The position numbers were made by a program, and so were the translations under genes. Under the pieces are notes generated by a model. The model was not told the DNA's origin, searched no databases, and worked only from the letters and a program-made list of their open reading frames with translations. From an uncultured Pirellulaceae bacterium (GTDB lineage Bacteria; Planctomycetota; Planctomycetia; Pirellulales; Pirellulaceae), in contig CAKZVF010000208.1 of the NCBI GenBank assembly GCA_937921995.1, positions 1 through 42,505 on the forward strand: 42,505 bases of DNA, written 5' to 3'. Numbering within the stretch: position 1 is the first letter of the stretch; each line of letters opens with the position of its first letter. Below are positions 13,734 through 40,734 of the stretch, one piece after another.

Positions 13734-13810
13734 CAACCATCGCCGTCGGCGTGGAAACACTCAGCAGCCATCATCGCAATCAAGCCCTCTCTCTGAATCG
13801 AACCGGACCT

Positions 13811-14674
13811 ATGAAAACAGACGCTCAAGGAAAATCAGATGTCGGTCTCAAACGCGAGACCAACGAAGACTACTTCGTGATCGACAACGAAAGAGGGATC
13901 TTCATTGTGTGTGACGGAATGGGCGGGCACTCCGCCGGCGAAGTCGCGTCGCATAAGGAGGTCGAGCACACGCTCGGCTACTTGATCGACCATTGGTCGC
14001 AAGTCGAAGAGGCTCGCAAACACTCAATCGGAACCTTCAAAATAAACCAATTGATTGAGCGAGCCGTCCACCACACTTGCCACGAACTTCACTTGCTTGG
14101 CCGACTCGATCCAAGTCTAAAAGGAATGGGCACGACGTTAACGCTGCTGTTGATCGTCGATGGTCAAGCGTTCGTCGGGCATGTTGGTGACTCGCGGTTG
14201 TACATCAAACGTAATGACGAGGCCTTTTTGCTAACGACTGACCATACGCTTTATAATGAAATGGTGACCGAGTTCCAGTCGGTCGATGAAGTCGACATTC
14301 GCAAGTTCCGTCATTGCTTGACGCGATCGGTCGGCAGCAACGATTCGGTGGCCGTCGAGACGCTTTCCTTCGAAGCGCAAAAGGGCGATGTGCTGCTGCT
14401 TTGCACCGATGGCTTGAGCAACTACTTCGAAGACGGCGTCGACTTGGCATTGTTACTCGGCGGGGATCACGTGAGCGAGATCGCTGACTCGCTTGTCGAG
14501 TTCGCGATGTACCAAGGAGGTAGCGACAACATTACCGCACTTGTGATTCGCTTGCTGAATGTTGATGACTTTCTGGTCAACCCGCACCGCATCAAATTGG
14601 ACTTTGAACTCAATGTAAATGCGGGCGAGACACATTTGGGTGTCGACTTAGATGAGACCGGCCCGTTAAAATAA
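13811..14674 (+). CDS. PP2C-type Ser/Thr protein phosphatase
   Basis: 287 residues from ATG 13811. It has all the metal-site motifs of PP2C: RETNEDYF near the N-terminus, VCDGMGGHSAGE, GTTLTLLLI...HVGDSRLY, LLCTDGLSNYFED and GGSDNITALVI. It is soluble with no membrane segment. It removes phosphate from Ser/Thr and usually opposes a Hanks-type kinase; one such kinase lies 20 kb away in the same proposed regulon. A terminator-like hairpin follows, before the activator gene. Confidence 0.93.
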   Translation: MKTDAQGKSDVGLKRETNEDYFVIDNERGIFIVCDGMGGHSAGEVASHKEVEHTLGYLIDHWSQVEEARKHSIGTFKINQLIERAVHHTCHELHLLGRLDPSLKGMGTTLTLLLIVDGQAFVGHVGDSRLYIKRNDEAFLLTTDHTLYNEMVTEFQSVDEVDIRKFRHCLTRSVGSNDSVAVETLSFEAQKGDVLLLCTDGLSNYFEDGVDLALLLGGDHVSEIADSLVEFAMYQGGSDNITALVIRLLNVDDFLVNPHRIKLDFELNVNAGETHLGVDLDETGPLK

Positions 14675-14734: not shown

Positions 14735-16234
14735 ATGAGCCAACTGTTGGTCGTTGACGACGAACCTGCCATCGTCGCGATGTTCGAGCACATCTTCGCC
14801 GGATCCGATGTCGAGATCCTCTCTGCCGGAACCGCTGCTGACGGACTGAGCATTATCCGCGACACCAAACCGGACGCAGTCATGTTGGATGTCGTGCTAC
14901 CGGACGGCAACGGACTAGATGTCTTCGAGCAAATCAAATCGCTCGACGCTCAACTGCCTGTTGTCGTCATGACCGGCGGACAAGACAGTCAAACTGCCAT
15001 CACGGCGATGCAGCAAGGGGCGCTCGATTATCTGGTCAAGCCGCTGGACGTTCGGTCGCTGAACAAAGTGGTTCGCCAAGCCATCGAAGTTCGCCGTTTG
15101 ATGGTCGAACCGATTGAGATTGAGCAGCCGGACGAATCGGCAGCAGCATCGTCGATGATCGGCAGCAGCCCGGCGATGCGCGAAGTTTATAAAGCGATCG
15201 GTCGCGTCGCATCCCAAAGCATTTCGGTGCTGATCCGAGGAGAAAGCGGCACCGGCAAAGAATTGGTTGCTCGCGCCATCTTTCAAAACGGAGACAGAAA
15301 AGACAAACCATTTATCGCGCTCAACTGCGCCGCGATCCCAGAAGCGTTGCTCGAAAGCGAATTGTTCGGCCACGAGAAGGGCGCTTTCACCGGAGCCGAC
15401 CGCAAGCGTATCGGCAAGATCGAACAGTGCGATGGTGGAACGCTGTTCCTTGATGAGATCGGCGACATGGAGGCTCCGCTGCAAAGCAAATTGCTGCGTG
15501 TGCTTCAAGAGAAGCAATTCGAACGAGTCGGAGGGAGTGCGACGCTGTCGGCCGACGTGCGAATCCTTGCCGCCACGCATCAGGACATCGAGTCGATGTG
15601 CAAGGAAGGCAAGTTCCGCGAAGACCTCTACTACCGCTTAAACGGTTACACGATCAGCTTGCCACCGCTTTCCCAGCGTGAAGGGGACCTTGATCATTTG
15701 ATCGAGTATTTCCGTAAGTCCGCCAACCGCGAGCTTGGCAAAGAGATCAGTCGCGTCGCACCGGAAGCGATCGAGCGTTTGCGTGCTTATTCATGGCCGG
15801 GGAACGTGCGTCAGTTGCAAAGCGTGATCCATCAAGCCGTCGTGCAATCGACGGGCACTGTCCTGCTGCCTGATTTCTTGCCGCCATTGTCCGATGACGC
15901 GGCGTCCAGAGGAACAACCACAACCCAAACGAGCAAAGCTGAATCACCCGCCTCTTCGACCGAAGCGGTCCCGGCAAACGGTTCAGCAGAAGCCTCCGCT
16001 GATCCCACGTCGGACGAGTCATTGGCCCAGTTGATCGCTCGACATCGCTCGCATCATTCACCAACGCTCTACGACGACGTAATCGAAGAGGCCGAGCGCA
16101 CTTTGATCGCCAGCGTGCTCAACGACTGCAACGGCAACCTCACCGAAGCCGCCCGTTTGCTGGGCATCACCCGCACCACCGTCCGCACCAAAGTCAACAA
16201 ACTCGGCATCGGCATCCGCAAAGTCGTCGAGTAA
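14735..16234 (+). CDS. NtrC-family sigma-54-dependent response regulator
   Basis: 499 residues. Receiver domain 1-118 with acidic D8/D9, phosphoacceptor D52, T80 and K102; AAA+ domain about 142-380 with Walker A GESGTGKE (169-176), the sigma-54 contact loop GAFTGA (216-221), Walker B GGTLFLDEIGD (234-244) and the arginine-containing FREDLYYRL; a Ser/Ala/Glu-rich linker; and a Fis-type helix-turn-helix at about 455-495 (GNLTEAARLLGITRTTVRTKVNKLG). It opens RpoN promoters by ATP hydrolysis after phosphorylation. No dedicated histidine kinase adjoins it; the hybrid kinase at 35336-38461 is the only candidate in the window. It is the natural activator for the eleven sigma-54-like promoters here, including its own at 12043-12059. 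Its 3' end is overlapped 177 bp antisense by the exporter gene. Confidence 0.96.
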   Translation: MSQLLVVDDEPAIVAMFEHIFAGSDVEILSAGTAADGLSIIRDTKPDAVMLDVVLPDGNGLDVFEQIKSLDAQLPVVVMTGGQDSQTAITAMQQGALDYLVKPLDVRSLNKVVRQAIEVRRLMVEPIEIEQPDESAAASSMIGSSPAMREVYKAIGRVASQSISVLIRGESGTGKELVARAIFQNGDRKDKPFIALNCAAIPEALLESELFGHEKGAFTGADRKRIGKIEQCDGGTLFLDEIGDMEAPLQSKLLRVLQEKQFERVGGSATLSADVRILAATHQDIESMCKEGKFREDLYYRLNGYTISLPPLSQREGDLDHLIEYFRKSANRELGKEISRVAPEAIERLRAYSWPGNVRQLQSVIHQAVVQSTGTVLLPDFLPPLSDDAASRGTTTTQTSKAESPASSTEAVPANGSAEASADPTSDESLAQLIARHRSHHSPTLYDDVIEEAERTLIASVLNDCNGNLTEAARLLGITRTTVRTKVNKLGIGIRKVVE

Positions 16235-17113
16235 ACGATGATGGATATTAAAGGTTACCGGCGTATCGACTTGTTGAATTTCCGCTGTTCTGGATTTTGG
16301 TTTCGTCAGTGCGGCACCACCTTCTCGAATCAGAATCAAGCCGCCCATGATGACGAGAAAAACTGCAAAGGCCTGCTGCAATGCTGTTTGATTGAGTTTG
16401 CTGTTGAGTCGCTGACCGACAAGACCGCCGACGATTCCAAGTAAACTGAAGATTGCGATCGTGCTCCAGTCAACGCTCATCGCGTGCTCGATGAGGTAGT
16501 GCTGATACTTCGCAAAACCAATAACGCTTTTCAAAACTGTGATCACAAGACTGGTGCCGATGGCCAGCCTCATCGGTAGTTTCCCAAACACCATCAGCGC
16601 TGGCACGATCAAAAAGCCACCGCCCACCCCGACAAATCCAGTCAACACGCCGACTGCTAATCCCTCGAGCGTGATCTTGACGGTTTCAGAAATCGTATAA
16701 GTGCGATTGGGTTCAGGAATCTTTCCGTCAGCCTCGTCTTGTCCGCTGCTGAAGAAAGCTCTGCGGATCATGAAGCCAGCGGCGAGGAGCAGAACAACTC
16801 CGAAGACGGCCAATTGGATTGCGTCGCTGGAAAAGCCACCCAACCACGCACCGACAAATGTTCCAATCATTCCGGGAATGCCAAAATAGATGACACTTTT
16901 CCAGTCGATCTGCTTGGTGCGTGCATAAGGAACTGCTGACACCACGCCGATCAAGCCAACGATTGCCATGGATTCGGCAATCGAGATCTTGGCGTTGTGG
17001 CCAACCAAATAAACCAACACAGGAACCGTCAACACAGAGCCGCCTGAACCGAGCAAGCCCAAGGTGACGCCAATCAGCAGTGCGCCGAGAATCAATATCA
17101 GCATCGTGGTCAT
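16058..17113 (-). CDS. TauE/SafE-type sulfite/organosulfonate exporter with an antisense-encoded tail
   Basis: 351 residues from ATG 17113, which sits 9 bases after AAGGGA; an ATG at 17122 is too close to that site. Eight or so membrane helices with the paired family motifs GLLGSGGSVLTVPVLVYL (N-terminal) and GFVGVGGGFLIVPALMVFGKLPMRLAIGTSLVI (second half). The family end is reached near MGGLILIREGGAAL; the next 75 residues are not membrane-like. The last 59 codons are read antisense through the helix-turn-helix region of the sigma-54 activator, giving an acidic Gly/Ala/Asp-rich tail. The normal stop has probably been lost. Last gene of the sulfur operon; likely exports sulfite, thiosulfate or a similar anion. 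Confidence 0.88.
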   Translation of the reverse strand: MTTMLILILGALLIGVTLGLLGSGGSVLTVPVLVYLVGHNAKISIAESMAIVGLIGVVSAVPYARTKQIDWKSVIYFGIPGMIGTFVGAWLGGFSSDAIQLAVFGVVLLLAAGFMIRRAFFSSGQDEADGKIPEPNRTYTISETVKITLEGLAVGVLTGFVGVGGGFLIVPALMVFGKLPMRLAIGTSLVITVLKSVIGFAKYQHYLIEHAMSVDWSTIAIFSLLGIVGGLVGQRLNSKLNQTALQQAFAVFLVIMGGLILIREGGAALTKPKSRTAEIQQVDTPVTFNIHHRLLDDFADADAEFVDFGADGGAGDAQQTGGFGEVAVAVVEHAGDQSALGLFDYVVVERW

Positions 17114-17127
17114 CGGGTTCATTCCCT

Positions 17128-17658
17128 TTAGTGAGGCAACTTGGTTTGTAGGAAAGCGTAGCCGTACATCCCAGCTATTGCTCCGGCAAGAGTGAATAAG
17201 GAAATCCACGCGCCGCTGCCGACTTGAGCGTAGATCGGGCCGGGGCAAGCCCCAGTGATCGCCCATCCAGCTCCAAAAATCATGCCGCCAATAATGACTC
17301 CCTTGTGGAACGGTTTAGGTTTGTAAGTGATTGGCTTTCCGTAGATGTCTCGAGCTGAAAATTTGCGAATCAGGAACATCGCTATCATGGCAACCAACAC
17401 ACCGACGCCAATTATCAGATACATTTGGGCTTCGCGAAAAAGAAACATGTCGTGTACGCGCTGCCATCGCACAACCTCCGATTTGGTCAGCACGATTCCA
17501 AAAAACGTTCCGATCAGCAACGTCATCGCGTAGACGAACGTACCGCTGGCCGTTCCTTTTGATTGGCGTGTGTTCTGGTCAATTGGTTTTGAAGTTGATT
17601 CCTTGGATATGCTTGTGTCGGTCAATTGAGCCGATTGGTTTTCGATTTGCGTTGCCAT
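17128..17658 (-). CDS. YeeE/YedE (DUF395) sulfur-transport half, second subunit
   Basis: 176 residues from ATG 17658, with GAAGGAAG correctly placed. About 45 polar residues (QIENQSAQLTDTSISKEST) precede four membrane helices. It has the family motifs GVIIGGMIFGAGWAITGACPGPIYAQVGSG, with the conserved Cys of GACPGP. YeeE/YedE proteins take up thiosulfate or other sulfur compounds; split two-subunit forms are known (PmpA/PmpB type). The pair with the preceding gene makes the complete permease. Confidence 0.92.
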   Translation of the reverse strand: MATQIENQSAQLTDTSISKESTSKPIDQNTRQSKGTASGTFVYAMTLLIGTFFGIVLTKSEVVRWQRVHDMFLFREAQMYLIIGVGVLVAMIAMFLIRKFSARDIYGKPITYKPKPFHKGVIIGGMIFGAGWAITGACPGPIYAQVGSGAWISLFTLAGAIAGMYGYAFLQTKLPH

Positions 17659-17738
17659 TGTTTCTTCCTTCGATTTGCAAACTTTTGAGTAGAGATTGCG
17701 GAACTTGATTGCATTTGAGACAGAATCATGCCCGCTTT

Positions 17739-18224
17739 CTAAAACAGGATATTGCCAAGCCCCCAAGTGACGCCAAGACCGCCGACGAAAAAAAAGATCG
17801 TTGCGACAAGGCTTGCCCAATTCAGATTGGCGATTCCCGTTATCGCGTGCCCCGATGTGCAGCCGCCCGCGTATCGGGTGCCAAAGCCAACCAGCACGCC
17901 GCCCACGAACAACTTGATTGCCCCCGAAACACTACTGAATTGTGTCGGCAAAAACTCCACCGGAACAGCGGACAGCCAGCGGCTGGCGATCAAGCCGCCC
18001 AGCCCAATTCCTATCGCAAAGACAAGCGTCCACATGCCTTCGCGACGATCAAAATTCTTCAAGTAGGGCAAACTGCTTTTCGTCGAACACATTGCACCAA
18101 TCTGTTGAAAGCTGGTGGAAATGCCAAAACTCTTACCCGCAAGAAAGAATAGCAGTGGCACCGTCAAACCAATCAGGATTCCAGAGAACCACCACGGCCA
18201 AGGTTGTAGAATGAAGTCGGTCAT
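17739..18224 (-). CDS. YeeE/YedE (DUF395) sulfur-transport half, first subunit
   Basis: 161 residues with AAGGAG before ATG 18224. Membrane protein with GILIGLTVPLLFFLAGKSFGIS, a Cys after the second segment (IGAMCSTKSS) and the hallmark GFGTRYAGGCTSGHAITG, whose Cys takes part in sulfur relay in thiosulfate importers of this family. It lies 13 bp after the hydrolase/rhodanese gene and 80 bp before the second half. Confidence 0.94.
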   Translation of the reverse strand: MTDFILQPWPWWFSGILIGLTVPLLFFLAGKSFGISTSFQQIGAMCSTKSSLPYLKNFDRREGMWTLVFAIGIGLGGLIASRWLSAVPVEFLPTQFSSVSGAIKLFVGGVLVGFGTRYAGGCTSGHAITGIANLNWASLVATIFFFVGGLGVTWGLGNILF

Positions 18225-18237
18225 ATTTTGCTCCTTG

Positions 18238-19713
18238 CTAATTCACAGTCTGACAATCAGAAGCTGCCCCAACTCCGCACGTTGGCAGCGGCCTTGTTTC
18301 ATTTCCGGATTGAACGGTGTGCCCATCGGTCTGCCACTGTTCGATACCACCACTCAGATTGACAACGTTTTTAATGCCAGCAGCCTGCAGCAGACTCGAT
18401 GCGATCGAAGAGCGACTTCCGGTACGACACTGCAACACGACAGGTCGATTAGCAGCATCCGCTTTCAGATCTTCGTACGAATCCAGCAAGCGTCCGAGAA
18501 ATATGTGCTCAGCGCCTGGTATGCGCGACGAATCCCACTCTGTTTGTCGCCGAACGTCAATCAGGCGCACCTCTCCGGCTGAAATCTTCTCTGCCAAGGC
18601 CGTTGGCGAGCTGTTCTGAAAGGACTCACTTGCTAACCCCACTGCCGCAACCTCGGCGGTATCGAAGTAGCCGCCGATGTCGTCGACTCCAATCTCGTGC
18701 AAAATCCGAACAGCTTTACCGAGCGTTTCCCCAGTTGCGATCAGGTACACAGGCTGGTTGTAATCCAACAGCCAACCGCCTTCACTAGCCAAGTATTTAA
18801 GCGGAATGTTGACAGTGCCCGGAACGTGGCGGGCCGAGAATTGAGCAAACTCCGCGACGTCCACGACCATGTGACGGTGATTGAAATAATCGAGTTGCTC
18901 GACGGATACTTTCCTTGGTTGGCGATTCTTGATGACCTTGGGGCCTTCTTTGTTGACGCGTTTCATCAAAGCGAAATATGGAGGCGCTTCGGGTTGCTCT
19001 TGGAGGATGTAATCGACAAACGCTTGCTCGTCAGTGAACCTCAAGGCAGCGTTGAATCGTTTTTCATATCCAACGGTGCTCGATGGAATTGAGCCCAGCC
19101 CTTTGCCGCAAGCGCTGCCGGCTCCATGGGCAGGCCAAACTTGGAGATGGTCTGGCAACTGGTTGAACTTCTGAATTGAACGAAACAGGTCGCGGGCACC
19201 GGCGTCTGCCGAACCGTGAACGCCTGCCGCCTTTTCCAGCAAGTCAGGACGTCCGATCGAGCCAACGAATACAAAGTCGCCAGTAAAGATTCCCATCGGC
19301 TCATTGGCTCCACCGCCCTGATCGGTGAGAACAAATGAAAGGCTCTCTGGAGTGTGGCCGGGCGTGTGCATCACGGTCAACAGAATTTTGCCGACATAAA
19401 TCTCGTCGCGGTCTTTAAGTAACTGGTGATCGTACTGCTGGACGAAATTATACTTCCAATCCGGCGGGCCCTCGTCCGAAACGTGGAGCCTTGCTCCAGT
19501 GGCTTCGGCTAATTCTCGGCTTCCAGAAACGTAGTCAGCATGAATATGGGTTTCGACAGAGCCAACAATCCTCATCTTTTCTGCTGCGGCCGCTTCGAGG
19601 TACGAAGTGATGTCGCGAGCGGGGTCGATGATGACGGCTTCTCCTGTTTTCTGGCAGCCAACCAAGTAGGAGGCGTGGGCCAATGCTGTGTCATAAAAGT
19701 ATTTGAGTAACAT
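18238..19713 (-). CDS. Metallo-beta-lactamase-fold hydrolase with two rhodanese domains (persulfide dioxygenase-like)
   Basis: 491 residues from ATG 19713 with GGAG upstream. The hydrolase domain (1-250) has THIHADYVSG, HTPGHTPES and the metal-ligand Asp of GIFTGDFVFVGSIGRPDL, then WPAHGAGSACG. The usual HxHxDH motif reads HIHADY here, as I recall from some MBL-rhodanese proteins. The first rhodanese domain (about 270-365) is inactive (YLIATGE, no Cys); the second (about 380-470) has the active Cys in LQCRTGSRS. The C-terminus ends in Cys-containing PTCGVGAASDCQ. It probably oxidises or transfers sulfane sulfur in the cytoplasm. First structural gene of the sulfur operon; its upstream gap carries both an operator-like repeat and a sigma-54-like promoter. 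Confidence 0.93.
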   Translation of the reverse strand: MLLKYFYDTALAHASYLVGCQKTGEAVIIDPARDITSYLEAAAAEKMRIVGSVETHIHADYVSGSRELAEATGARLHVSDEGPPDWKYNFVQQYDHQLLKDRDEIYVGKILLTVMHTPGHTPESLSFVLTDQGGGANEPMGIFTGDFVFVGSIGRPDLLEKAAGVHGSADAGARDLFRSIQKFNQLPDHLQVWPAHGAGSACGKGLGSIPSSTVGYEKRFNAALRFTDEQAFVDYILQEQPEAPPYFALMKRVNKEGPKVIKNRQPRKVSVEQLDYFNHRHMVVDVAEFAQFSARHVPGTVNIPLKYLASEGGWLLDYNQPVYLIATGETLGKAVRILHEIGVDDIGGYFDTAEVAAVGLASESFQNSSPTALAEKISAGEVRLIDVRRQTEWDSSRIPGAEHIFLGRLLDSYEDLKADAANRPVVLQCRTGSRSSIASSLLQAAGIKNVVNLSGGIEQWQTDGHTVQSGNETRPLPTCGVGAASDCQTVN

Positions 19714-19815
19714 GTAATCGCTCCGATTAACTTGTGTCCGTTTACGTTGGTTGAGTTGGTGTGGGTTCGCAAAAGCTAAGCAGCCAAGGCTGTAGTCTGT
19801 TTCGTGATCAATATG

Positions 19816-19832
19816 TGCAATCACCGTGCCAT
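19816..19832 (-). promoter_or_regulatory. Sigma-54 promoter for the sulfur operon
   Basis: Minus strand ATGGCACGGTGATTGCA: perfect core TGGCAC-N5-TTGCA with ten-base spacing. Predicted start near 19805, about 92 bases before ATG 19713. The operator-like repeat lies 27-50 bases upstream of it. Confidence 0.8.
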
Positions 19833-19858
19833 TTCTTATCGCAGACAAAACACATGCA

Positions 19859-19882
19859 AACATGTCCATACTCCGATATGAT
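19859..19882 (-). promoter_or_regulatory. ArsR-type operator candidate, copy 1 (upstream of hydrolase)
   Basis: Read on the minus strand, this 24-mer contains CATATCGGAGTATGGACATG and matches copy 2 at 20 of 24 positions in inverse orientation. Each copy is an imperfect dyad (arms like ACATATC / GACATGT, 8-base spacer), as expected for a dimeric winged-helix repressor. Confidence 0.7.
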
Positions 19883-29047: not shown

Positions 29048-30052
29048 TTAAGTCTTTCTGCTCTTCACTTTGCCCTTGAGCAAGCGTTGAACCAGATCAA
29101 CGGCGATCTCGGAATCAAACGTCTCTTGAAATTCCTGAAGACCACTTGGGCTAAAGACATTCACTTCTACCACTTTGTCGCCGATCAAATCAAGTCCGCT
29201 AAACACGATACCATCGGCATGAAGATGTTTGGCGATCCGTTCGCAGATTTTGACTTGCTGCTCGTCCAGTTGGATTATCTCGGCCGTTCCGCCCAGCGAG
29301 ATGTTGCTTCGCATTTCGCCAGACGCGGGTATTCGACGAATTCCCACGGGACCGTTGGCTTCGAGAATCTTTTCTCCTACCGTCAACACGCGGACGTCGC
29401 CATCGGTGGCGGCGGGTAAGTATTCCTGAACGACCAGGTAACCTGTTCGACCAAGAATGTCGACGACTTGGCGCGTGTTGAGTGACTCGGGGCTTTCGAA
29501 AAAGAACACATCGCGACCCTGCGATCCAAGCAGCGGCTTGATGACCAAAGGCCCGTTAAGCTTTTGCGCGAAGTCTTCAACACTTTGCAACGTGTGGCAA
29601 ATTAACGTCTCCGGAACATACTTTTCAGGAAGCCTGACCGTGTAGAATTTGCTTGAAGCTTTTTGCAAGCCAGTCGGATCGTTGATGACACAAGTTCCTT
29701 TTTCACATGCCAGACGCATGGCTTCCAGTGCCAGTCGATGAGCCCACGATCGAGCAACATCTTTGCCGGGTGAAGTGCGAATCCAACAGGCCGTGACATC
29801 GGCCAGGTCGATCAATTGGTTTTTGGCTTTGGAAAGCTTCTTCTGAAGCGAACTTGCCGTTTTGACTTTCTCCAGCGACGGAACTTCAAGGCATTCGGCG
29901 AAAACGCGCGAGTTGCTCGAAGCTTGCAAATGCACAACGTCAGTCACCAGCACTTTGTATCCAAGTTCAGCGCAGGCTTGGATGAGTGTGGCGTTGGTAC
30001 CACCGGGCTTGAGCGACCAGCGATCGTTAACCAGAAACAAAATGGATTTCAT
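29048..30052 (-). CDS. Glutathione-synthetase-like ATP-grasp ligase, copy A
   Basis: 334 residues. Layout of GshB/RimK ligases: N-terminal pre-ATP-grasp domain (MKSILFLVNDRWSLKPGGTN...RTSPGKDVARSW, INDPTGLQKASSK), then ATP-binding lysine loop VIKPLLGSQGRDVFF, DGDVRVLTVGEKI, the RSNISLGGTAE loop and the metal-binding end GLDLIGDKVVEVNVFSPSGL. Such enzymes join a carboxylate, via acyl phosphate, to an amine. The substrate is unknown; glutathione itself is not implied, as no glutamate-cysteine ligase is in sight. About a third of residues seem shared with the neighbouring copy B, judged by eye. Confidence 0.9.
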   Translation of the reverse strand: MKSILFLVNDRWSLKPGGTNATLIQACAELGYKVLVTDVVHLQASSNSRVFAECLEVPSLEKVKTASSLQKKLSKAKNQLIDLADVTACWIRTSPGKDVARSWAHRLALEAMRLACEKGTCVINDPTGLQKASSKFYTVRLPEKYVPETLICHTLQSVEDFAQKLNGPLVIKPLLGSQGRDVFFFESPESLNTRQVVDILGRTGYLVVQEYLPAATDGDVRVLTVGEKILEANGPVGIRRIPASGEMRSNISLGGTAEIIQLDEQQVKICERIAKHLHADGIVFSGLDLIGDKVVEVNVFSPSGLQEFQETFDSEIAVDLVQRLLKGKVKSRKT

Positions 30053-30061
30053 TGATAGCTC

Positions 30062-31063
30062 CTAACTTACTTCTTGAGACGGCGACTCGAAAAACGAATC
30101 AACAATCAGGTCTTCGAATGGAATATCTGAAAAGCCAACACAGTCAAACAACCCGCCGGTGCTGAACACGTTGAACTCGATGACTTTGCCGCCGATCAAG
30201 TCCACGCCCGCCAGTTCAATTCCGTGGTTCATCAGCAAACTGGCTGCATGGTTCGCCGTTTCACGTTCCTGTTGGTTGAGATTCAAAGGATGAGCCGTCC
30301 CGCCGGCATGCAAATTGGCGCGGAAATCGCCATGTTTGGGTGTGCGGTGGATGCCCGCAACGGTATTGTTATGCTCCAGCACTTCCCCCGCCAAAACGAT
30401 AACTCGCTTGTCGCCTTCGTGGTCGGCGTGGACGAAGTGCTGGGCAACCAGCAGTCGACCAACCGCCAGTTCGTTGACTTTGGATTCCAGATGAGGATCG
30501 TCGGGACTCAAGCGAATCACGTCATTTCCGCGCGAACCGATCGCTGGTTTCAGGACACAGTCGCATTTAGCACTGGCAACGAACGCCAAAAGTTGCTGCT
30601 CAATACTGCTAACGATGGTCGTCGGACGATACTTGGGCGCGAGCAAGGCAATCGAAGCTTTGGACGCAAACAACTCAAGATGTTTGGGATCATTAACCAA
30701 CCGCATTCCACTCATCTCACAAACGTTGCAGAAGTCGAGGAATGCGCGGTGCTTTGCAGATCGCTCAATGTCACGCCCCGGGTTCGTGCGGATCATGATC
30801 GTATCGCCAGAGCTTAGGCCATACGTTTTAAGTTCACTGCTTTGACTGCGTGACAATGCTTCAACATCGTGCGACGATCTGGCCGATTCAAAACAGCTGG
30901 CTTTAAGCTGAATTCTCGTCCGCTCGTCAGCGACAAGCGAAAACTTCTCGATGTCAGAGACGTAAACTTCAATCCCCTTCCGCGCAAGACTGGCGATCAG
31001 CATTGCCGTTGTTTGACGATAACCAATTTCTTCGATTCGATTGACGACGACGAATACTTTCAT
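30062..31063 (-). CDS. Glutathione-synthetase-like ATP-grasp ligase, copy B
   Basis: 333 residues; ATG 31063 follows AAGGGAG and shares one base with the TGA of the hydrolase gene (TGATG), so translation is coupled. Motifs parallel copy A: RTNPGRDIERS, VNDPKHLELFASK, VLKPAIGSRGNDVIRL, GDKRVIVLAGEVL, FRANLHAGGTA, GVDLIGGKVIEFNVFSTGGL. The N-terminal region differs more than the catalytic part, as expected if the two copies use different acceptor substrates. Its place between a carboxypeptidase-like hydrolase and copy A suggests consecutive steps in one pathway or a modification/removal pair. Confidence 0.9.
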   Translation of the reverse strand: MKVFVVVNRIEEIGYRQTTAMLIASLARKGIEVYVSDIEKFSLVADERTRIQLKASCFESARSSHDVEALSRSQSSELKTYGLSSGDTIMIRTNPGRDIERSAKHRAFLDFCNVCEMSGMRLVNDPKHLELFASKASIALLAPKYRPTTIVSSIEQQLLAFVASAKCDCVLKPAIGSRGNDVIRLSPDDPHLESKVNELAVGRLLVAQHFVHADHEGDKRVIVLAGEVLEHNNTVAGIHRTPKHGDFRANLHAGGTAHPLNLNQQERETANHAASLLMNHGIELAGVDLIGGKVIEFNVFSTGGLFDCVGFSDIPFEDLIVDSFFESPSQEVS

Positions 31064-32163
31064 CAAACGTCTCCCTTACTCGCCAGATTTTCTGGGCTAC
31101 AAGTCTCTTTGAACTGTTCGATTCGATCCGCAGGCATCGGGACGCCAAGGTGCAAAATCCGCGCTCCGGTTTGGCCGATCGGATTGACACAATGCCCAAT
31201 CACGTATCCATCTTCAGGAGCAAAATACTGATGAATGACATCTCCAAAAACATTGGTCTGCTGCGAGATCAAATCACCTTTGCCAAATTTATTGGTGACT
31301 TTATGAAAGACGTTCATCAACCCACCGCGTTCCGTTAGCATCCAATACGAACGATCGCACAGGATTGGTTCTTTCTTAAACGGCTTTAGCGGAGCACGGG
31401 CTGGAAGCATCCCAACGTGGTTTAGAATTCGGTGCATTCCCTGAAGCGTCTTGCGAATCGGATCGCGTTGAAATGTTTGCGGATCGCAAATCTCCACTGT
31501 GATCGCCGGCATGCCTGCTTCGTCGGCGACACCACGCAGCGTGTAGTCCGATGGTGGGTTGTTCACGATGATCTGCGGTTGCAACAAGTACGCCATTCGC
31601 GCGTTGATTGGTTTCTCCAAGTCGGCACGTACGTACAATGAGTTAACACGTCCCGGACTGGCGGTGTGCAGATCAACCAGATAGTCAAAGTGACTGGTGA
31701 TTCGATCAACAAGGTTGTGGGCGTAGACGTGAGACATCTTTCCCGTTGGGCTGCCCGGCATGATGTGATTCAAGTCAACGCCGTCAATGAACTCGCGCCG
31801 ATCAGTCAAAAAACCGGGTACATTCGCTACGATCACGCAGACAATGGTGCCGCGTAGGTTTCGCAAACTGATCTTTCGCAGCAGTTGATGAATCACGGGG
31901 ATTCCGTTTAGCTCGTTACCGTGCAGTGCTGCCGTGATGCCAAAGATCGGGCCGTCTTTCTTGCCTCGCGCGACAACGACGGGAACTTGAATCGGACGGC
32001 TCATGCCGTTTTCGGCCAGTTCAATGAATCGCCGTGAAAACTCGCCGCGCGGTAGATTCTCGAGTTCGAGTCGATCGACACGCTTCACGTGCTTGACGTT
32101 CTCGTAGCCATTGGTCGGCAGTAGTGGAATTGGCTGTCGTAGTTCTTCGCTCGGTTGATTCAT
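31063..32163 (-). CDS. Succinylglutamate desuccinylase/aspartoacylase-type zinc hydrolase
   Basis: 366 residues. Zinc carboxypeptidase-like fold of the AstE/AspA group: metal ligands HGNELNG (HxxE, about residue 80) and the later His of YLVDLHTASPGR, catalytic Glu in ITVEICDPQTF, with GVDLNHIMPG between. A C-terminal beta-barrel part (GYVIGHCVNPIGQTGARILHLGVP) closes the protein. The family removes acyl groups or amino acids from amide bonds. Its ATG overlaps the stop of the ATP-grasp-like gene by 4 bp (ATGA) and its stop touches the next ATG. Encoded between amide-forming ligases, it may trim or recycle their product. Confidence 0.9.
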   Translation of the reverse strand: MNQPSEELRQPIPLLPTNGYENVKHVKRVDRLELENLPRGEFSRRFIELAENGMSRPIQVPVVVARGKKDGPIFGITAALHGNELNGIPVIHQLLRKISLRNLRGTIVCVIVANVPGFLTDRREFIDGVDLNHIMPGSPTGKMSHVYAHNLVDRITSHFDYLVDLHTASPGRVNSLYVRADLEKPINARMAYLLQPQIIVNNPPSDYTLRGVADEAGMPAITVEICDPQTFQRDPIRKTLQGMHRILNHVGMLPARAPLKPFKKEPILCDRSYWMLTERGGLMNVFHKVTNKFGKGDLISQQTNVFGDVIHQYFAPEDGYVIGHCVNPIGQTGARILHLGVPMPADRIEQFKETCSPENLASKGDV

Positions 32164-33596
32164 AGCACCAACTCCTCATTAAATCGCTTGTCTGGATTGA
32201 TGCTTTGGAAAAGCTTGCGGCGGAATTTGCCTTTGGTTGTAATCAGCCCTTGAGCCATTTCGTCGATCGCAGAAACACACATCACCGTTTGCATGTAGCT
32301 TTCAATCAAGTCATCCAGCCCGAACCCAAGTCGGTTGAAGTCGCGACTGTCTACCAGAAGCAATCTTTCCGGCTGAGTCGTGAAAGAGCCATCGGCTTGT
32401 TTGACCGAAAGGTTGGTTCCCAGCATGTCCCACGAATCATCGCCGTCATTTAAGTCATCCGTCAGCGGCTTCCTCGCCCGACGTGCGTAGACCGCCACGG
32501 GAAAGAAGCCGTTTGGCCCCGCGCCAACCATGAACCGCAAATCAGCAGCGTACAGGTTCAGCTTACGATCCGGCATCGTCCCCACGTGAAAGAACCGGCC
32601 GAACTGACTTTGGGAGCTCCACTTGGAGTTTCCGATCAGCGATTGAACGATGAAATGTTCGTAGTGAAACTCCATGTCCATAAACGCGTCGAGCTCACGC
32701 TGGGACGTGATCGTAAAAACGCCTTGGCCAGCGTTCGAGTAAGGAACTTTGACGACCGCGATGCCACCCATCCGCTGCACCCACATCGGGACTTCTGCCT
32801 TGGAGACATCCCAAATCGTTTCGGGTGTGTTGATTCGCAGCCCTGAATTGGCACGAGCCGCGTTGTAAAAGTCATAGGCTTTTGACGCGACCAGTTTGTT
32901 TCGACCACCAGCAAGGCACACCAATACGGGGTTGTAGATCAACGTCCGGGTGATTGGCGGAATCCGATTCCAAGGCTGCTGGGTGACGTATCGAAACGCA
33001 GCTCGGATCGGAATCCGTTGACCATCGTGCAGTACGTGCATCACCAAGTTTTCATCGAACTCAATGGTCCGATTGTGGTCAGATTCGTGATAAGGAACGA
33101 GCCAGACATCCTCACCAGTGAGTTCGGCAAGCGTCGCGGCATAGCCAGAGTTCTCCATATGGTTCTTGTCGTAGATCACGGCGAGGCCACCCTTTACCTT
33201 CTTGCGACTTTGCATTTGAGGGATAAACGAATCACGAAGTAACCGCTCATAGCCCGCCTTCTCCATCGACTCGTTGATGCGAGGCATGGACTTCTGCCCT
33301 GACGGACAAGAGTTTGTTTCAATCACGACAACCTGACGCATGCCGGTTTCGCTTGTCACGTGGAACAGATCGCAACCACCCCAGCGAAAGAATCGCGGCG
33401 TCGAACTCAATAAATTGTGAACGGCTTCAGGGTCTGCCTCGGGATGCAAGTGACAAAATCGCGTCGCTATGCGTTCGCGTCCCATGTCCATCAGGTTCCG
33501 CACTAATGGATGAATATGAGCGTTCAGCACGCGCGGGTAAAAGTGAGATTCGGCTTCGAAGTCACCTGAGGTAACCAACATTGGTTCTTTAATCAT
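32160..33596 (-). CDS. ATP-grasp-like ligase of unknown substrate
   Basis: 478 residues from ATG 33596, which overlaps the phosphatase gene by 8 bp; a longer start at 33644 lies wholly inside that gene. Features: VVVIETNSCPSGQKSMPRINE, NPVLVCLAGGRNKLVASKAYDFYNA, a glycine loop VVKVPYSNAGQGVFTI typical of ATP-grasp nucleotide loops, then FIVQSLIG and ADLRFMVGAGPNGFFPVAVYARRARKPL. This resembles ATP-grasp proteins of the circularly permuted or glutathionylspermidine-synthase kind, but the fit is loose. No signal peptide or membrane helix. It forms a tight, overlapping cluster with a PP2C upstream and the zinc hydrolase downstream. Confidence 0.72.
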   Translation of the reverse strand: MIKEPMLVTSGDFEAESHFYPRVLNAHIHPLVRNLMDMGRERIATRFCHLHPEADPEAVHNLLSSTPRFFRWGGCDLFHVTSETGMRQVVVIETNSCPSGQKSMPRINESMEKAGYERLLRDSFIPQMQSRKKVKGGLAVIYDKNHMENSGYAATLAELTGEDVWLVPYHESDHNRTIEFDENLVMHVLHDGQRIPIRAAFRYVTQQPWNRIPPITRTLIYNPVLVCLAGGRNKLVASKAYDFYNAARANSGLRINTPETIWDVSKAEVPMWVQRMGGIAVVKVPYSNAGQGVFTITSQRELDAFMDMEFHYEHFIVQSLIGNSKWSSQSQFGRFFHVGTMPDRKLNLYAADLRFMVGAGPNGFFPVAVYARRARKPLTDDLNDGDDSWDMLGTNLSVKQADGSFTTQPERLLLVDSRDFNRLGFGLDDLIESYMQTVMCVSAIDEMAQGLITTKGKFRRKLFQSINPDKRFNEELVL

Positions 33597-34413
33597 GACT
33601 TTTCTTGGAGTCCTTTCTTTCTCTTTGGCGTCGAAAACACGCAACGGTTAAGTCGTCGGGCTTTGCGGCTAGTGAATTGGTGTTCATCCTTTGAGTTGTA
33701 TTCGCAATCAGTTTTTCGAATTGAGTTTCGAGCGAACCGGCACGAACCAGTTGGACGATTTCATCGACCGTCAGATTGTCGAACAGCCCGTCGGTTGCCA
33801 TTACGACTGTGTCACGGGCCGCGAGGTCAATCGGCGGACCGACTTCGACTCGCATCTCGGGATAGCCGACGTAGTTGTTGACGACATTTCGCTCCTCGTG
33901 CAGCATGGCTTCGGGTTGGTCGAGCACTCCGATTTCAACCGCCATCGCAACGGGTGCGTGAGCGACGGAGAAATACTTAATGCGACCTCGGTTGCTGCAC
34001 ACCAACCCGCAAGAATCTCCGGCGTGGATCATTCGAAGCTGGTTGTCCAAGAGTTCGCCGACAATCACGGTGGTACCTGAGTCGAACCCCCAGCTACAGA
34101 TCGTTTGGTTCGCCGCATCCATTGCGTCCACTAACAAGGATCGAACACTGCTGCCGTCAGTATCTTGATTGCAGGCCGCGGCGATCTGATCCACGATCTC
34201 ACCGGCAGCACGCGCACCAGCAAGATGGCCGCCCATCCCATCCGCGACGACGATGACGCCGTGATTGGGGGCAAGTTCGATGTACGCCAGAGCGTCTTCG
34301 TTGGGAGAAGACTTATCAGGACAAACCGACGAGGCAATTGCCAGTCGTCCGCCGCAAAATTCGATAAATACCGGGCCAGCGCAGGCTTGTTCTTTTAGCA
34401 CTTCAACGTTCAC
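33589..34413 (-). CDS. PP2C-type Ser/Thr phosphatase, partner of the adjacent kinase
   Basis: 274 residues from GTG 34413, overlapping the kinase stop (GTGA). Metal motifs: SPNEDALAY, VVADGMGGHLAGARAAGE, GTTVIVGELLDNQLRMIHAGDS, VMATDGLFDNL and KPDDLTVACF. Soluble. It would reverse phosphorylation by the kinase encoded just before it; the pair controls targets that probably include products of the following ATP-grasp genes. Confidence 0.93.
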   Translation of the reverse strand: MNVEVLKEQACAGPVFIEFCGGRLAIASSVCPDKSSPNEDALAYIELAPNHGVIVVADGMGGHLAGARAAGEIVDQIAAACNQDTDGSSVRSLLVDAMDAANQTICSWGFDSGTTVIVGELLDNQLRMIHAGDSCGLVCSNRGRIKYFSVAHAPVAMAVEIGVLDQPEAMLHEERNVVNNYVGYPEMRVEVGPPIDLAARDTVVMATDGLFDNLTVDEIVQLVRAGSLETQFEKLIANTTQRMNTNSLAAKPDDLTVACFRRQRERKDSKKSHD

Positions 34414-35288
34414 CTTCGCCTCCGCGAAAGGTTTCGAATTGCCTTGGGCAGAACGATCTCGAACTCGCTTTGCATCCGAATCGCATCTGGGAAACGCTTG
34501 TTCGACTTCGCGTCAATCGCTTTCTTCATTAGCGCGATAAAAGCTGGGTGCACGCGTTTGGTACGTAGTCGAATTGCGTTTGGCGGAGGCCAGTTGAACG
34601 GGAATTCGGGCCATGCGCCGGAGAACATCCGGTAGAAAATCAATCCAAGCGAAAACACATCTGATCGCATCGACGGCTTTCCCATCGCTTGTTCGGGAGC
34701 CATGTAGCCGATCGTTCCCGTGCCCGACCCTGAAACGGTTAGGCGGGAAACTTTCGCGATGCCAAAATCGGCCAACCGAATCACATCGTCGTCGAACAGA
34801 ATAAAGTTCTCCGGTTTGATGTCGCAATGAATCACACTTTGTTCATGCGCGTAGGCGACGGCATCCATCATTTGTTCGGCCAGCAGAAACGCTTTGCTCG
34901 TCGCAAGTCGGCGTTGAAGACGATCGTCAAGCGTTTCGTTTCCCAGCCTTGTAACGATAACCAGTTGCCCGTCGATCATCTCGGCGTTTTTGACCGACAA
35001 AATGTTTTCATGATGAAGCTTGGCCGTGATGCGGATCTCTCGGCGGAACTGATCAAGCAACTCCTTGTCGATATACTGCTCGCGAGGCAGTTTGAGAGCA
35101 ACGGGGAGTCCTTCAATCATGTCGATTGCTGAAAAAACGCGCGCGAATCCGCCTTGGCCAATTAGCTCAATGATTTTGTATTTCCCAAACTGAGAACCGC
35201 GGCGCAACGACTTGTCGTAAAGCGTGACCTCCGGCCGCGTGGTTCGTTTCTTTCGGGACTCAGTTTCTGCGTTCGGATTTGCATTCAT
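34410..35288 (-). CDS. Hanks-type Ser/Thr protein kinase, cytoplasmic
   Basis: 292 residues. Complete kinase domain about 36-285: GQGGFARVF glycine loop, catalytic Lys66 (VALKLP), HCDIKPEN (Asp156), DFG (Asp174), GTIGYMAPEQ, SDVFSLGLIFYRMFSG. The active-site motif has Cys in place of the usual Arg (HCD rather than HRD), so activation-loop phosphorylation may not be needed. No transmembrane segment or PASTA domain: it stops soon after the kinase core, unlike membrane-bound PknB. The N-terminal 30 residues are basic. Coupled with the PP2C gene. Confidence 0.93.
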   Translation of the reverse strand: MNANPNAETESRKKRTTRPEVTLYDKSLRRGSQFGKYKIIELIGQGGFARVFSAIDMIEGLPVALKLPREQYIDKELLDQFRREIRITAKLHHENILSVKNAEMIDGQLVIVTRLGNETLDDRLQRRLATSKAFLLAEQMMDAVAYAHEQSVIHCDIKPENFILFDDDVIRLADFGIAKVSRLTVSGSGTGTIGYMAPEQAMGKPSMRSDVFSLGLIFYRMFSGAWPEFPFNWPPPNAIRLRTKRVHPAFIALMKKAIDAKSNKRFPDAIRMQSEFEIVLPKAIRNLSRRRR

Positions 35289-38461: not shown

Positions 38462-38539
38462 GTGAAGTTGAGGCCGACCGTGCAGATTGATTGGAGTTAG
38501 GTCTGGCTACTTCGTCTCTTGCGACCTGCAACTCTTCTT

Positions 38540-38556
38540 TGCAAGCCTCATGCCAA
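38540..38556 (-). promoter_or_regulatory. Sigma-54 promoter for the hybrid kinase operon
   Basis: Minus strand TTGGCATGAGGCTTGCA: one mismatch in the -24 element (T for C), perfect TTGCA at -12, ten-base spacing. Predicted start near 38530, 70-90 bases before the possible start codons. Confidence 0.65.
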
Positions 38557-38593
38557 ACACTGGCAATCAAAACGCCAGAACTGTTCGATCGTT

Positions 38594-38610
38594 TTGGTAC
38601 GGTTAATGCA
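38594..38610 (+). promoter_or_regulatory. Possible sigma-54 promoter for csrA
   Basis: TTGGTACGGTTAATGCA keeps GG and GC ten bases apart with one mismatch in each element, the weakest of the eleven sites. Predicted start near 38621, a 36-base leader. It pairs divergently with 38540-38556. Confidence 0.5.
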
Positions 38611-38656
38611 AAAGGGAGGTGAGAAGATTTTGACCCTCCCTGTGAAAGGAATCGCC

Positions 38657-38887
38657 ATGCTTGTTCTCAGCCGAAAGAAGGATCAAACGATCCATATTGG
38701 AGATGGAGTTACCATCCAAATCTGTCAAATCAAGGGTTCTACCGTGCGAATCGGTATTTCAGCTCCTGAAGACTCTCGCATTCTGCGAGGGGAATTGGCA
38801 TGGTTTGCGGAAGAACCCCGCCAAGGATCCGAATCGGATTCAGGACGAAGCAAGCCATTGGAAATCGCTCAAAAGGTTCCCGCTTAG
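38657..38887 (+). CDS. csrA: CsrA carbon storage / translational regulator
   Basis: 76 residues from ATG 38657, with AAAGGA at good spacing. Starts with the family signature MLVLSRKKDQTIHIGDGVTIQICQIKGSTVRIGISAPEDSRILRGELAWF; the RNA-binding residues of the first strand (LSRK) and of the RGEL region are kept. A Ser/Glu-rich tail of about 20 residues extends beyond the usual 60. It binds GGA-containing mRNA leaders as a dimer and controls translation. Being in this unit it could act on messages of the same regulon. Confidence 0.95.
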   Translation: MLVLSRKKDQTIHIGDGVTIQICQIKGSTVRIGISAPEDSRILRGELAWFAEEPRQGSESDSGRSKPLEIAQKVPA

Positions 38888-38901
38888 CAATCGTCTTTAC
38901 C

Positions 38902-38950
38902 AACTACCGGGCAATCTTTGCTCGCGTCGACTAAAGTCTGCCCGGTAGTT
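38902..38950 (+). promoter_or_regulatory. Large stem-loop between csrA and the protease gene
   Basis: A perfect 12-bp stem (AACTACCGGGCA / TGCCCGGTAGTT) closes a 25-base loop with an inner CTTT / AAAG pairing. No T run follows, so it is more likely an mRNA-stability or translational element than a terminator. Confidence 0.55.
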
Positions 38951-39010
38951 CCGGCTTGGCTGGAAAGTCTTCAAGGCGTCATTGCAATATTTGTTATCCA
39001 GAAAGCCCAA

Positions 39011-39517
39011 GTGACCAAAAAAATCCGAAACATTAAAGACCTCCCAGTTATCGGATGGCGTGAGTGGGTGAAGCTTCCTGACCTCGGAATCAAACTAATC
39101 AAAGTAAAAGTTGATACGGGTGCTCGATCTTCGGCTCTTCACGCTTACGAGGTTCGTGAATTTCTCAAGGGCGACGAAAAGTGGGTGCGATTCAAAGTTC
39201 ACCCGGATCAGCGTTCGGCGAAACGTGTCGTCGAGGCAGAAGCAAAAGTTCTCGAATACCGATCGGTCAAGAACTCCGGCGGAAAGTCTGCCAAACGCCC
39301 GGTGATCCTCACAACGGTGACTTTGCTGGACATCTCTTGGGAAGTCGAACTTACGCTTGCCAACCGAGACGAAATGGGGTTCCGCATGCTATTGGGCCGT
39401 GAGGCCGTTCGAGGACGACTGCTAGTCGACTCCGGCGGTTCGTACTATAGCGACAGACCAAGAATCAAAAAGAAGAAGTTAACAGTCAAAAAGAAAACAG
39501 AACGGTCCAGAAAATGA
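39011..39517 (+). CDS. RimB-type (ATP-dependent zinc protease family) retropepsin-like protease
   Basis: About 168 residues from GTG 39011; an upstream in-frame start at 38918 lies in the stem-loop and is less likely. Family marks: PVIGWREWVKLPDLGIKLIKVKVDTGARSSALHA, where DTGARS is the aspartic-protease-like active site, a central RFKVHP region, and RMLLGREAVRGRLLVDSGGSY. The C-terminus is very Lys-rich (KKKKLTVKKKTERS). In other bacteria this family accompanies RimK and removes glutamates that RimK adds to ribosomal protein S6. The stop overlaps the rimK start (ATGA). Confidence 0.9.
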   Translation: MTKKIRNIKDLPVIGWREWVKLPDLGIKLIKVKVDTGARSSALHAYEVREFLKGDEKWVRFKVHPDQRSAKRVVEAEAKVLEYRSVKNSGGKSAKRPVILTTVTLLDISWEVELTLANRDEMGFRMLLGREAVRGRLLVDSGGSYYSDRPRIKKKKLTVKKKTERSRK

Positions 39518-40734
39518 AATTCGGAATTCTCTCTTGCGCACCAAAATGTTACAGCACCATGCGACTCGTTGAAGCCGCCAAGCAGCGCGGCCACGACGTC
39601 AGCGTCGTCAACACCAGCAAGCTTGCGATCGACCTTCAGGAAGGACTTCCTGATCTGTACTATCGGCAGAAAAAACTGGCTGAATACGACGCCGTGTTGC
39701 CTCGAATTGGGGCCTCGTTAACGTACTTCGGTACCGCCGTTGTGCGACAGTTCGAGCAAATGGACGTTTACAGCGCGAACTCTTCGGCTGGAATTTCCAA
39801 CTCGCGCGACAAGCTTCGTAGTTTGCAGATTTTCAGCCGTCACCAAATCGGGATTCCCGCCACGACCTACGTACGTGCAAAGAAAGATGTCCTTCCCGCA
39901 ATCGAGCGTGTCGGGGGTGCTCCTGTGATTATCAAGCTGATCGAGGGAACACAAGGAATTGGCGTCTTATTGGCCGAGTCCGTGAAGTCTGCGGAAGCGA
40001 TTATTGAACTGCTGCAAAGTCAAAAGCAAAACGTCCTGATCCAAAAGTTTGTTGCCGAAAGCAAAGGTAAGGATGTGCGGGCGTTTGTCGTTGGCGACGA
40101 AGTCGTTGGCGCGATGCGGCGTGTTGCTCAAGGTCAGGAGTTCCGCAGCAACGTTCATCGCGGCGGCGTCACCGAAGCGATCACCTTGGGCGACGATTAT
40201 CGCGAGACCGCGATCCGTGCAGCTCAGATCATGGGTTTGCGGGTCGCAGGCGTGGACATGCTTGAAGGCAAAGACGGCCCGCAAGTCATGGAGGTCAACT
40301 CTTCCCCGGGACTCGAAGGAATCGAAAAGTGCACTCAGCTGGATATCGCCGGTTCGATTGTGGACTACATCGCAGGCCGCGTCGATTTTCCAGAGATTGA
40401 TATTCGCCAGAGGCTTACTGTAAGTCGAGGGTACGGAGTCACTGAGCTTTCGATCCCTGAAGGCTCTGTCTATGTTGGGAAGCGAATTGACGAATCGGGC
40501 CTCGAGGACAAAGACATCAATGTGCTAACGTTGACCCGCGGCACGACGGTGATTCCTAACCCCAAACGAAGCCGTGAACTTGAAGGCGGTGATCGTATTC
40601 TGTGCTTCGGGAAGCTGGAATTGATGCGAGAGTTGGTGCCTGCGAAAGTTCGACAAGAACGCCAATCGGAAATGCAAGACTTGCCCGACCTGCCCGTCGC
40701 TCACGAAGTCTTCGCCGACGAAGCAGATGTTTGA
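39514..40734 (+). CDS. rimK: RimK-type ATP-grasp glutamate ligase fused to an RCK_C (TrkA-C) domain
   Basis: 406 residues. Residues 1-295 are RimK: MKFGILSCAPKCYSTMRLVEAAKQRGHDVSVVNT, LPRIGASLTYFGTAVVRQFE, ATP-loop VIIKLIEGTQGIGVLLAES, KDVRAFVVGDEVVGAMRR, EFRSNVHRGG and VMEVNSSPGLEGIE (metal ligands). From about 308 to 375 there is a TrkA-C-like beta/alpha domain (VTELSIPEGSVYVGKRIDESGL, NVLTLTRGTTVIPNPKRSRELEGGDRILCFG), known elsewhere from K+ channel regulators and transporters, where it can bind nucleotides. RimK adds glutamates to the C-terminus of S6; the added domain could couple that to c-di-AMP, c-di-GMP or another ligand. The last part is an acidic tail. Confidence 0.93.
   Translation: MKFGILSCAPKCYSTMRLVEAAKQRGHDVSVVNTSKLAIDLQEGLPDLYYRQKKLAEYDAVLPRIGASLTYFGTAVVRQFEQMDVYSANSSAGISNSRDKLRSLQIFSRHQIGIPATTYVRAKKDVLPAIERVGGAPVIIKLIEGTQGIGVLLAESVKSAEAIIELLQSQKQNVLIQKFVAESKGKDVRAFVVGDEVVGAMRRVAQGQEFRSNVHRGGVTEAITLGDDYRETAIRAAQIMGLRVAGVDMLEGKDGPQVMEVNSSPGLEGIEKCTQLDIAGSIVDYIAGRVDFPEIDIRQRLTVSRGYGVTELSIPEGSVYVGKRIDESGLEDKDINVLTLTRGTTVIPNPKRSRELEGGDRILCFGKLELMRELVPAKVRQERQSEMQDLPDLPVAHEVFADEADV

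Follow-up and report, generated by a model that had tools for sequence, protein, structure and literature searches.

Within a 42,505-nucleotide contig of an uncultured Pirellulaceae bacterium (the window, meaning that whole stretch of DNA), six tightly packed genes encode a Hanks-type Ser/Thr protein kinase, a PP2C-type phosphatase, a protein termed G4, a zinc amidohydrolase of the AstE/AspA/DoeB type and two GshB-like ATP-grasp ligases, termed ligase B and ligase A (Table 1). Comparison with other genomes identifies a core of this block, consisting of G4, the zinc hydrolase and one partner ATP-grasp ligase that is either GshB-like or RimK-like, as a genuine and uncharacterised gene module that recurs in conserved form, and the case for regarding it as a previously unnamed three-enzyme set is strong. 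As to what the module makes, it is inferred, tentatively and at somewhat less than an even chance, that it carries out a reversible conjugation of peptidyl or acyl groups to polyamines, a polyamine-type amine being the best guess for the acceptor.

G4 was sought in 294 Planctomycetota, in 249 genomes of the order of Bacteroidota to which the Saprospiraceae loci belong and in 189 Myxococcota, and was carried by 5, 54 and 30 of these respectively, with one further carrier in a Bacteriovoracaceae metagenome-assembled genome (MAG); all named records among the carriers are MAGs. Outside the window, the zinc hydrolase lies no more than 2.5 kb from G4 in 53 of 61 loci, drawn from Bacteroidota, Myxococcota and Planctomycetota. 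In an unbiased set of 40 loci chosen for G4 alone the hydrolase was present in 35 and a GshB-like ligase in 26, as against 0/40 for both in equally long control stretches taken from those genomes. A RimK-like ligase occupies the partner position in three loci (L097, L108 and L166) and some G4 loci are without any partner ligase. The pairwise distances of G4, hydrolase and ligase are correlated (r 0.92 and 0.84, values in which shared phylogeny is still included). A domain tally of about 215 flanking proteins from Bacteroidota and Myxococcota found no further recurrent family, and G4 is encoded on no plasmid in PLSDB.

The names that Pfam gives to these proteins suggest by themselves that the block is a chance gathering of standard glutathione synthetases with a hydrolase of arginine catabolism. 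This is highly improbable on two counts: first, the association recurs in three phyla and in none of the 40 controls; second, no equivalog cut-off is met by the ligases or the hydrolase. Against the glutathione synthase cut-off of 272 bits ligase A scores 190.6 and ligase B 151.8, and against that of TIGR01380 (299) they score 168 and 142.8, while the hydrolase reaches 50.8 for DoeB (cut-off 402.7) and 21.7 for aspartoacylase (cut-off 180), and the AstE model is absent among its NCBIfam matches. In all, none of the six block proteins reaches an NCBIfam curated cut-off for a specific enzyme, the PP2C scoring 105 bits for the Stp1-like model, below its cut-off of 230. The first-pass annotation had taken the six genes for a possible undescribed pathway, an idea that sits well with module genes found together rather than scattered and with enzymes that score too low for the curated models of glutathione or arginine metabolism; it holds for the ligases and the hydrolase, whereas the kinase and the phosphatase turn out to be accessory.

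G4, a protein of about 480 residues, matches no Pfam or NCBIfam family and no PDB entry by sequence, including by a profile hidden Markov model search; the one faint profile signal, given by 43 of 68 members at E <=1 (best 5e-4), points to RimK-type ligases. The earlier label "ATP-grasp-like" is therefore without backing from Pfam or NCBIfam but agrees with predicted structure. Two AlphaFold models, made from 22 sequences (predicted local distance difference test, pLDDT, 84.5) and from 68 sequences (pLDDT 89.8, predicted template modelling score, pTM, 0.92), match hundreds of chains at Z >8, those listed being ATP-grasp enzymes. For each model the entry that ranks first (Z 15.4 and 17.1) is 3k1t, annotated as a putative ATP-grasp gamma-glutamylcysteine synthetase, which superimposes on the better model over 328 residues at 4.2 A with 12% identity, the next row being at Z 13.8. 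Further matches to the better model include homoglutathione synthetase (Z 13.6), human GSS (13.4), YjfC (13.2), YgiC (12.8), GspS (12.5) and, in the same Z 12.5-13.6 group, the COG2308-type protein 3n6x. Because the N-terminal ~230-280 residues of the unpermuted ligases ArgX, LysX, Ddl and RimK align solely to G4 model residues ~136-446, while the E93-x-N95 motif of G4 is N-terminal (residues 93-95), G4 is read from its models as a circularly permuted ATP-grasp ligase of the kind represented by GSS and GspS. Across 68 G4 sequences E93, N95, D76, K234 and K283 are invariant, and the loop N288-A-G290-Q-G292 is invariant or nearly so; by analogy with GSS and GspS these would be the nucleotide and magnesium residues. 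There is good support for regarding G4 as an undescribed ATP-grasp family within a conserved module.

The hydrolase belongs with AstE, AspA and DoeB by its PF24827 domain, conserved zinc ligands and catalytic glutamate, and the solved structures closest to it are SGD/AspA 3cdx and DoeB 6twm. Residues H81, E84, H166 and E224 are conserved in 53-56 of 56 sequences, their roles as zinc ligands and catalytic glutamate being assigned by analogy. Since the catalytic residues of the partner ligases are likewise conserved, G4, hydrolase and partner ligase all look active. Ligase B is the partner type found also in other Pirellulaceae, and its orthologue follows G4 and the hydrolase in L007-L010.

The evidence pointing to a polyamine comes from gene neighbourhood. 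In Saprospiraceae the module is accompanied by genes for arginine decarboxylase (ADC), agmatinase (AGM) and a deoxyhypusine-synthase-like protein (DHS) related to homospermidine-forming enzymes; a reading of these neighbours as COG2308, alpha-E and transglutaminase genes was dropped in favour of these Pfam identities. At least four arrangements occur: G4-ligase-hydrolase-ADC-AGM-DHS, ADC-AGM-DHS-G4-ligase-hydrolase (L160, L092), G4-ADC-AGM-DHS-ligase-hydrolase, in which the polyamine genes split G4 from its partners (L081, L161), and a divergent arrangement (L162). The linked loci fall at several points among the Bacteroidota branches of the G4 tree. Sixteen genomes of the sampled Bacteroidota order carry both G4 and a DHS-like gene, and in 8 of them (G294, G313, G399, G450, G467, G491, G542 and G554) the two lie within ~9 kb. 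Linkage extends to the planctomycete locus L166, where a DHS-like gene (PF01916, E 2.4e-92) is divergent from G4-hydrolase-RimK, and to the Myxococcota locus L107, with ADC and DHS near G4. Relatives of ligase A adjoin an agmatinase-family gene in L115 and, in L025 (732-2219), a gene for a PF04371 protein resembling PAD and agmatine deiminase, with a long N-terminal extension, that may be a deiminase acting on a conjugate of agmatine or arginine. ADC, AGM and DHS were found in none of the 40 control stretches.

ATP-grasp ligases form an acyl phosphate and then an amide, and PF24827 enzymes hydrolyse N-acyl groups. A make-and-break amide cycle is proposed because of these two activities and because RefSeq lists YgiC and YjfC under the name peptide-spermidine ligase. 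One ligase would use ATP to activate a carboxylate, probably that of glutamate or of a small acidic peptide, and make a first amide; another would extend this amide or cap it with an amine, the likeliest being a polyamine or an agmatine-type base; and the zinc enzyme would hydrolyse the product, so that the compound could be made and removed on demand. In this genome the Ser/Thr kinase and the PP2C phosphatase would probably set the activity of the module. In its fullest form the proposal is that bacteria of at least three phyla use a permuted and a second ATP-grasp enzyme to attach polyamines (agmatine, putrescine, homospermidine) reversibly to peptides or amino acids, with DoeB-like release and, here, control by kinase and phosphatase; put this specifically, it is a possibility that would sooner fail than hold.

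Several observations weigh against polyamine conjugation. The solved structure nearest to G4 is a putative gamma-glutamylcysteine synthetase and not a polyamine ligase; a sequence link between G4 and GspS, YgiC or YjfC is not detectable (hhalign probability 0.7%), and no Pfam match places G4 in their family, PF03738. The PF04371 protein of L025 scores 42 bits against an agmatine-deiminase cut-off of 382, and the window itself has no polyamine gene adjacent to the module. Any polyamine gene occurs in only 4/40 unbiased G4 loci against 0/40 controls, which alone is not significant, and the arrangements described above are not fully independent because the linked Bacteroidota are related. Within the Bacteroidota order a DHS-like gene is present in 16/54 genomes with G4 against 139/195 without it (Fisher p 6e-8). 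Most G4 genomes of the order therefore lack such a gene and homospermidine is no universal substrate; this association being negative, co-occurrence at genome level was rejected as support, and the polyamine proposal draws on physical linkage only.

The structural match to 3k1t raises the possibility that the product is instead a glutathione-like peptide, with G4 as a non-homologous gamma-glutamyl-amino-acid ligase (a 'GshA'), the second ligase acting like GshB and the hydrolase providing turnover; the polyamine genes would then be mere neighbours, or would supply a final cap as in glutathionylspermidine. This is the main rival, although on balance it is unlikely. The Z-score of 3k1t stands well clear of the next row and the partner ligases are GshB-like, yet these miss the glutathione-synthase cut-offs widely, and at some loci the partner is RimK-like or missing. 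3k1t is taken here to belong to PF08886, and G4 resembles a GshA of that type in fold, 3k1t being best in both models, but not in sequence profile: none of 22 G4 members matched PF08886 even with the E-value limit set at 5, and the PDB profile search with G4 did not recover 3k1t. The genome of the window has no match to the GshA families PF04262, PF04107 or PF08886, which is weak evidence because the assembly is only 77% complete; moreover, the PF08886 search matched nothing in 14 control genomes either. Among the Bacteroidota G4 genomes tested a strong PF04107 match was found in only two (G494 and G476), whereas in Myxococcota almost every genome with G4 encodes a strong PF04107 match. To our knowledge, no glutathione pathway employs an AstE/DoeB-type hydrolase. 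Both readings can be combined if a gamma-glutamyl peptide is made first and the polyamine cap is added last, as in glutathionylspermidine.

Conjugation to polyamines invites comparison with the glutathionylspermidine synthetase/amidase GspSA and with YgiC and YjfC of E. coli, which share with the module the permuted ATP-grasp fold and the pairing of a ligase with an amide hydrolase, the polyamine connection of the module being one of gene neighbourhood. They differ in that no sequence-level relation to G4 is detectable and the module has a second ATP-grasp enzyme, and GspSA uses a cysteine amidase where the module has a zinc enzyme. With 3k1t, despite the closeness in structure, the low identity and the presence of a hydrolase and polyamine neighbours, which are foreign to glutathione synthesis, mark a difference. 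Ligases A and B have the GSH-S domains of GshB and RimK and also their catalytic residues, but differ from GshB in lying far below its equivalog cut-offs and in being two copies in this operon, with one partner elsewhere. The module hydrolase shares the catalytic domain, zinc ligands and glutamate of DoeB, AstE and aspartoacylase but falls in no named equivalog and is a fixed partner of G4. In fungal E-64 biosynthesis the ATP-grasp enzyme Cp1B and the amide-bond synthetase Cp1D give final agmatine or putrescine amides; there too a stand-alone ATP-grasp enzyme, structurally near homoglutathione synthetase and YgiC/YjfC, acts in a stepwise pathway, but the second step is taken by an ANL enzyme and a hydrolase of the module type is not reported (PMC12568646). 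The assignment of YgiC and YjfC as peptide-spermidine ligases is that of Pederick 2023, as cited by PMC12568646.

A nameless ligase family is carried by about one fifth of the genomes sampled from one Bacteroidota order and about one sixth of those from Myxococcota, yet is tied to a dedicated hydrolase. GspSA of E. coli and trypanosomatids is a known case of reversible polyamine masking; if peptide-polyamine conjugates are the product, such masking would have arisen again from different parts, and if a glutathione-like peptide is, Bacteroidota apparently without classical GshA would have a thiol or peptide pathway. In the open literature no paper was found linking ATP-grasp enzymes to aspartoacylase and a gene cluster, nor one linking them to succinylglutamate desuccinylase and RimK or to Saprospiraceae and polyamines, although the amidoligase survey of Iyer et al. 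2009 may contain a description.

The RimK-like partners in L097, L108 and L166, and a RimB/RimK pair in the window, could indicate modification of a protein, in which an ATP-grasp enzyme adds amino acids or a polyamine, in the manner of a RimK-like tail, and the hydrolase removes them. A small acidic protein, 'C6', which recurs inside or beside Bacteroidota modules (6/40 unbiased loci against 0/40 controls), adds to this. However, the hydrolase lies in the small-molecule deacylase branch (AstE/AspA/DoeB) and not among carboxypeptidases, C6 is confined to Bacteroidota within this set, and no common protein target is encoded across all loci, so that protein modification seems rather improbable. 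C6 has a conserved core, often with a long Asp/Glu tail, and no Pfam or NCBIfam match, and could be a substrate, a regulator or a bystander.

The product might also be a compatible solute, the ligases making a small neutral amide or peptide comparable to N-acetylglutaminylglutamine amide (NAGGN) and the hydrolase, which resembles DoeB of ectoine breakdown, clearing it after down-shock. The window carries a dense ion and stress set (2888-28916) with MscS, CorA, MgtE, a Na+/H+ exchanger and Usp, and MscS or CorA is also near G4 in L097, L019 and L166. The compatible-solute product that the first-pass annotation had allowed for gains nothing from these neighbours, which are no commoner at G4 loci than in random stretches (MscS 3/40 against 2/40, CorA 2/40 against 1/40, MgtE 1/40 against 1/40), and an osmotic-stress island around G4 in the window, L097 and L019 was rejected. 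The NAGGN synthetase model TIGR03103 is absent from the listed matches of all six block proteins at E 0.001, the RimK of the window alone giving a weak cross-match. A compatible solute is accordingly a poor prospect.

The accessory standing of the kinase and PP2C follows from their distribution: they accompany the module solely in the window, L025 (Pirellulaceae) and L100 (Myxococcota), where the pairs are homologous to that of the window and where L100 has the matching order kinase-phosphatase-hydrolase-ligase. By itself the kinase is as frequent in controls as at G4 loci (3/40 in each). A second PP2C gene in the window (13751-14674) has homologues in the PP2C gene that immediately precedes G4 in L025 (7017-7919) and in the gene for a PP2C-cNMP-binding protein that directly follows G4 in L097 (7510-8763).

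In the G4 tree the copies of the window and of other Pirellulaceae group as a single clade within Myxococcota sequences (local support 0.62-0.67), a nesting that suggests transfer; the other planctomycete copies are the most divergent in the tree. Locus L110 (G676:C23), filed under Myxococcota, has a Bacteroidota-type module that groups with L163-L165, and is either a recent transfer or a misbinned contig.

The six genes lie where the first-pass annotation had placed them, with overlaps of 1-8 bases and a 9-base gap from ligase B to ligase A. The G4 open reading frame (ORF) opens at 33644, the ATG at 33596 being preferred from homologues and sequence, which gives an 8-base overlap. The Ser/Thr kinase gene starts 47 bases past the end of a histidine kinase gene, the intervening stretch holding a terminator-like hairpin (a pattern match only), and the MgtE gene starts 131 bases past ligase A; on account of these flanks, the block from kinase to ligase A looks like one unit.

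Table 1. Coordinates of the module genes and of related features in the window, and of C6 in Bacteroidota loci.
Feature	Coordinates	Strand	Length (aa)	Evidence
Hanks-type Ser/Thr protein kinase, first gene of the unit, accessory regulator	34410..35288	-	292	PF00069 E 1.8e-39
PP2C-type phosphatase, accessory regulator	33589..34413	-	274	PF00481 E 1.5e-11
G4, ATP-grasp ligase read as circularly permuted, unnamed family, module-defining	32160..33596	-	478	predicted structure
AstE/AspA/DoeB-type zinc amidohydrolase	31063..32163	-	366	PF24827 (AstE_AspA_cat) E 1.1e-29
Ligase B, GshB-like ATP-grasp	30062..31066 (alternative start ATG 31063)	-	334	PF02955 (GSH-S_ATP) E 2.7e-33
Ligase A, second GshB-like ATP-grasp	29048..30052	-	334	PF02955 (GSH-S_ATP) E 3.6e-42
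RimB	38918-39517			Pfam, NCBIfam
RimK	39514-40734			Pfam, NCBIfam
C6	L161:4605-4916			
C6	L163:7770-8213			
C6	L165:6310-6660			
C6	L092:7137-7508			

The RimB/RimK pair is real and, with the block, bears out the earlier count of four ATP-grasp-type proteins and two amide-cleaving enzymes in the window. It is a unit separate from the module: the pair is complete and near the module but transcribed apart from it, and in the region 38519-40734 a CsrA-like ORF is followed by RimB and then by RimK with a C-terminal TrkA_C domain. Elsewhere in the window, a TauE/SafE-type exporter and a metallo-beta-lactamase-rhodanese fusion (16058-19869) resemble a persulfide dioxygenase set, and a large serine recombinase with resolvase and zinc ribbon domains at the contig edge (421-2697) marks a possible mobile-element boundary.

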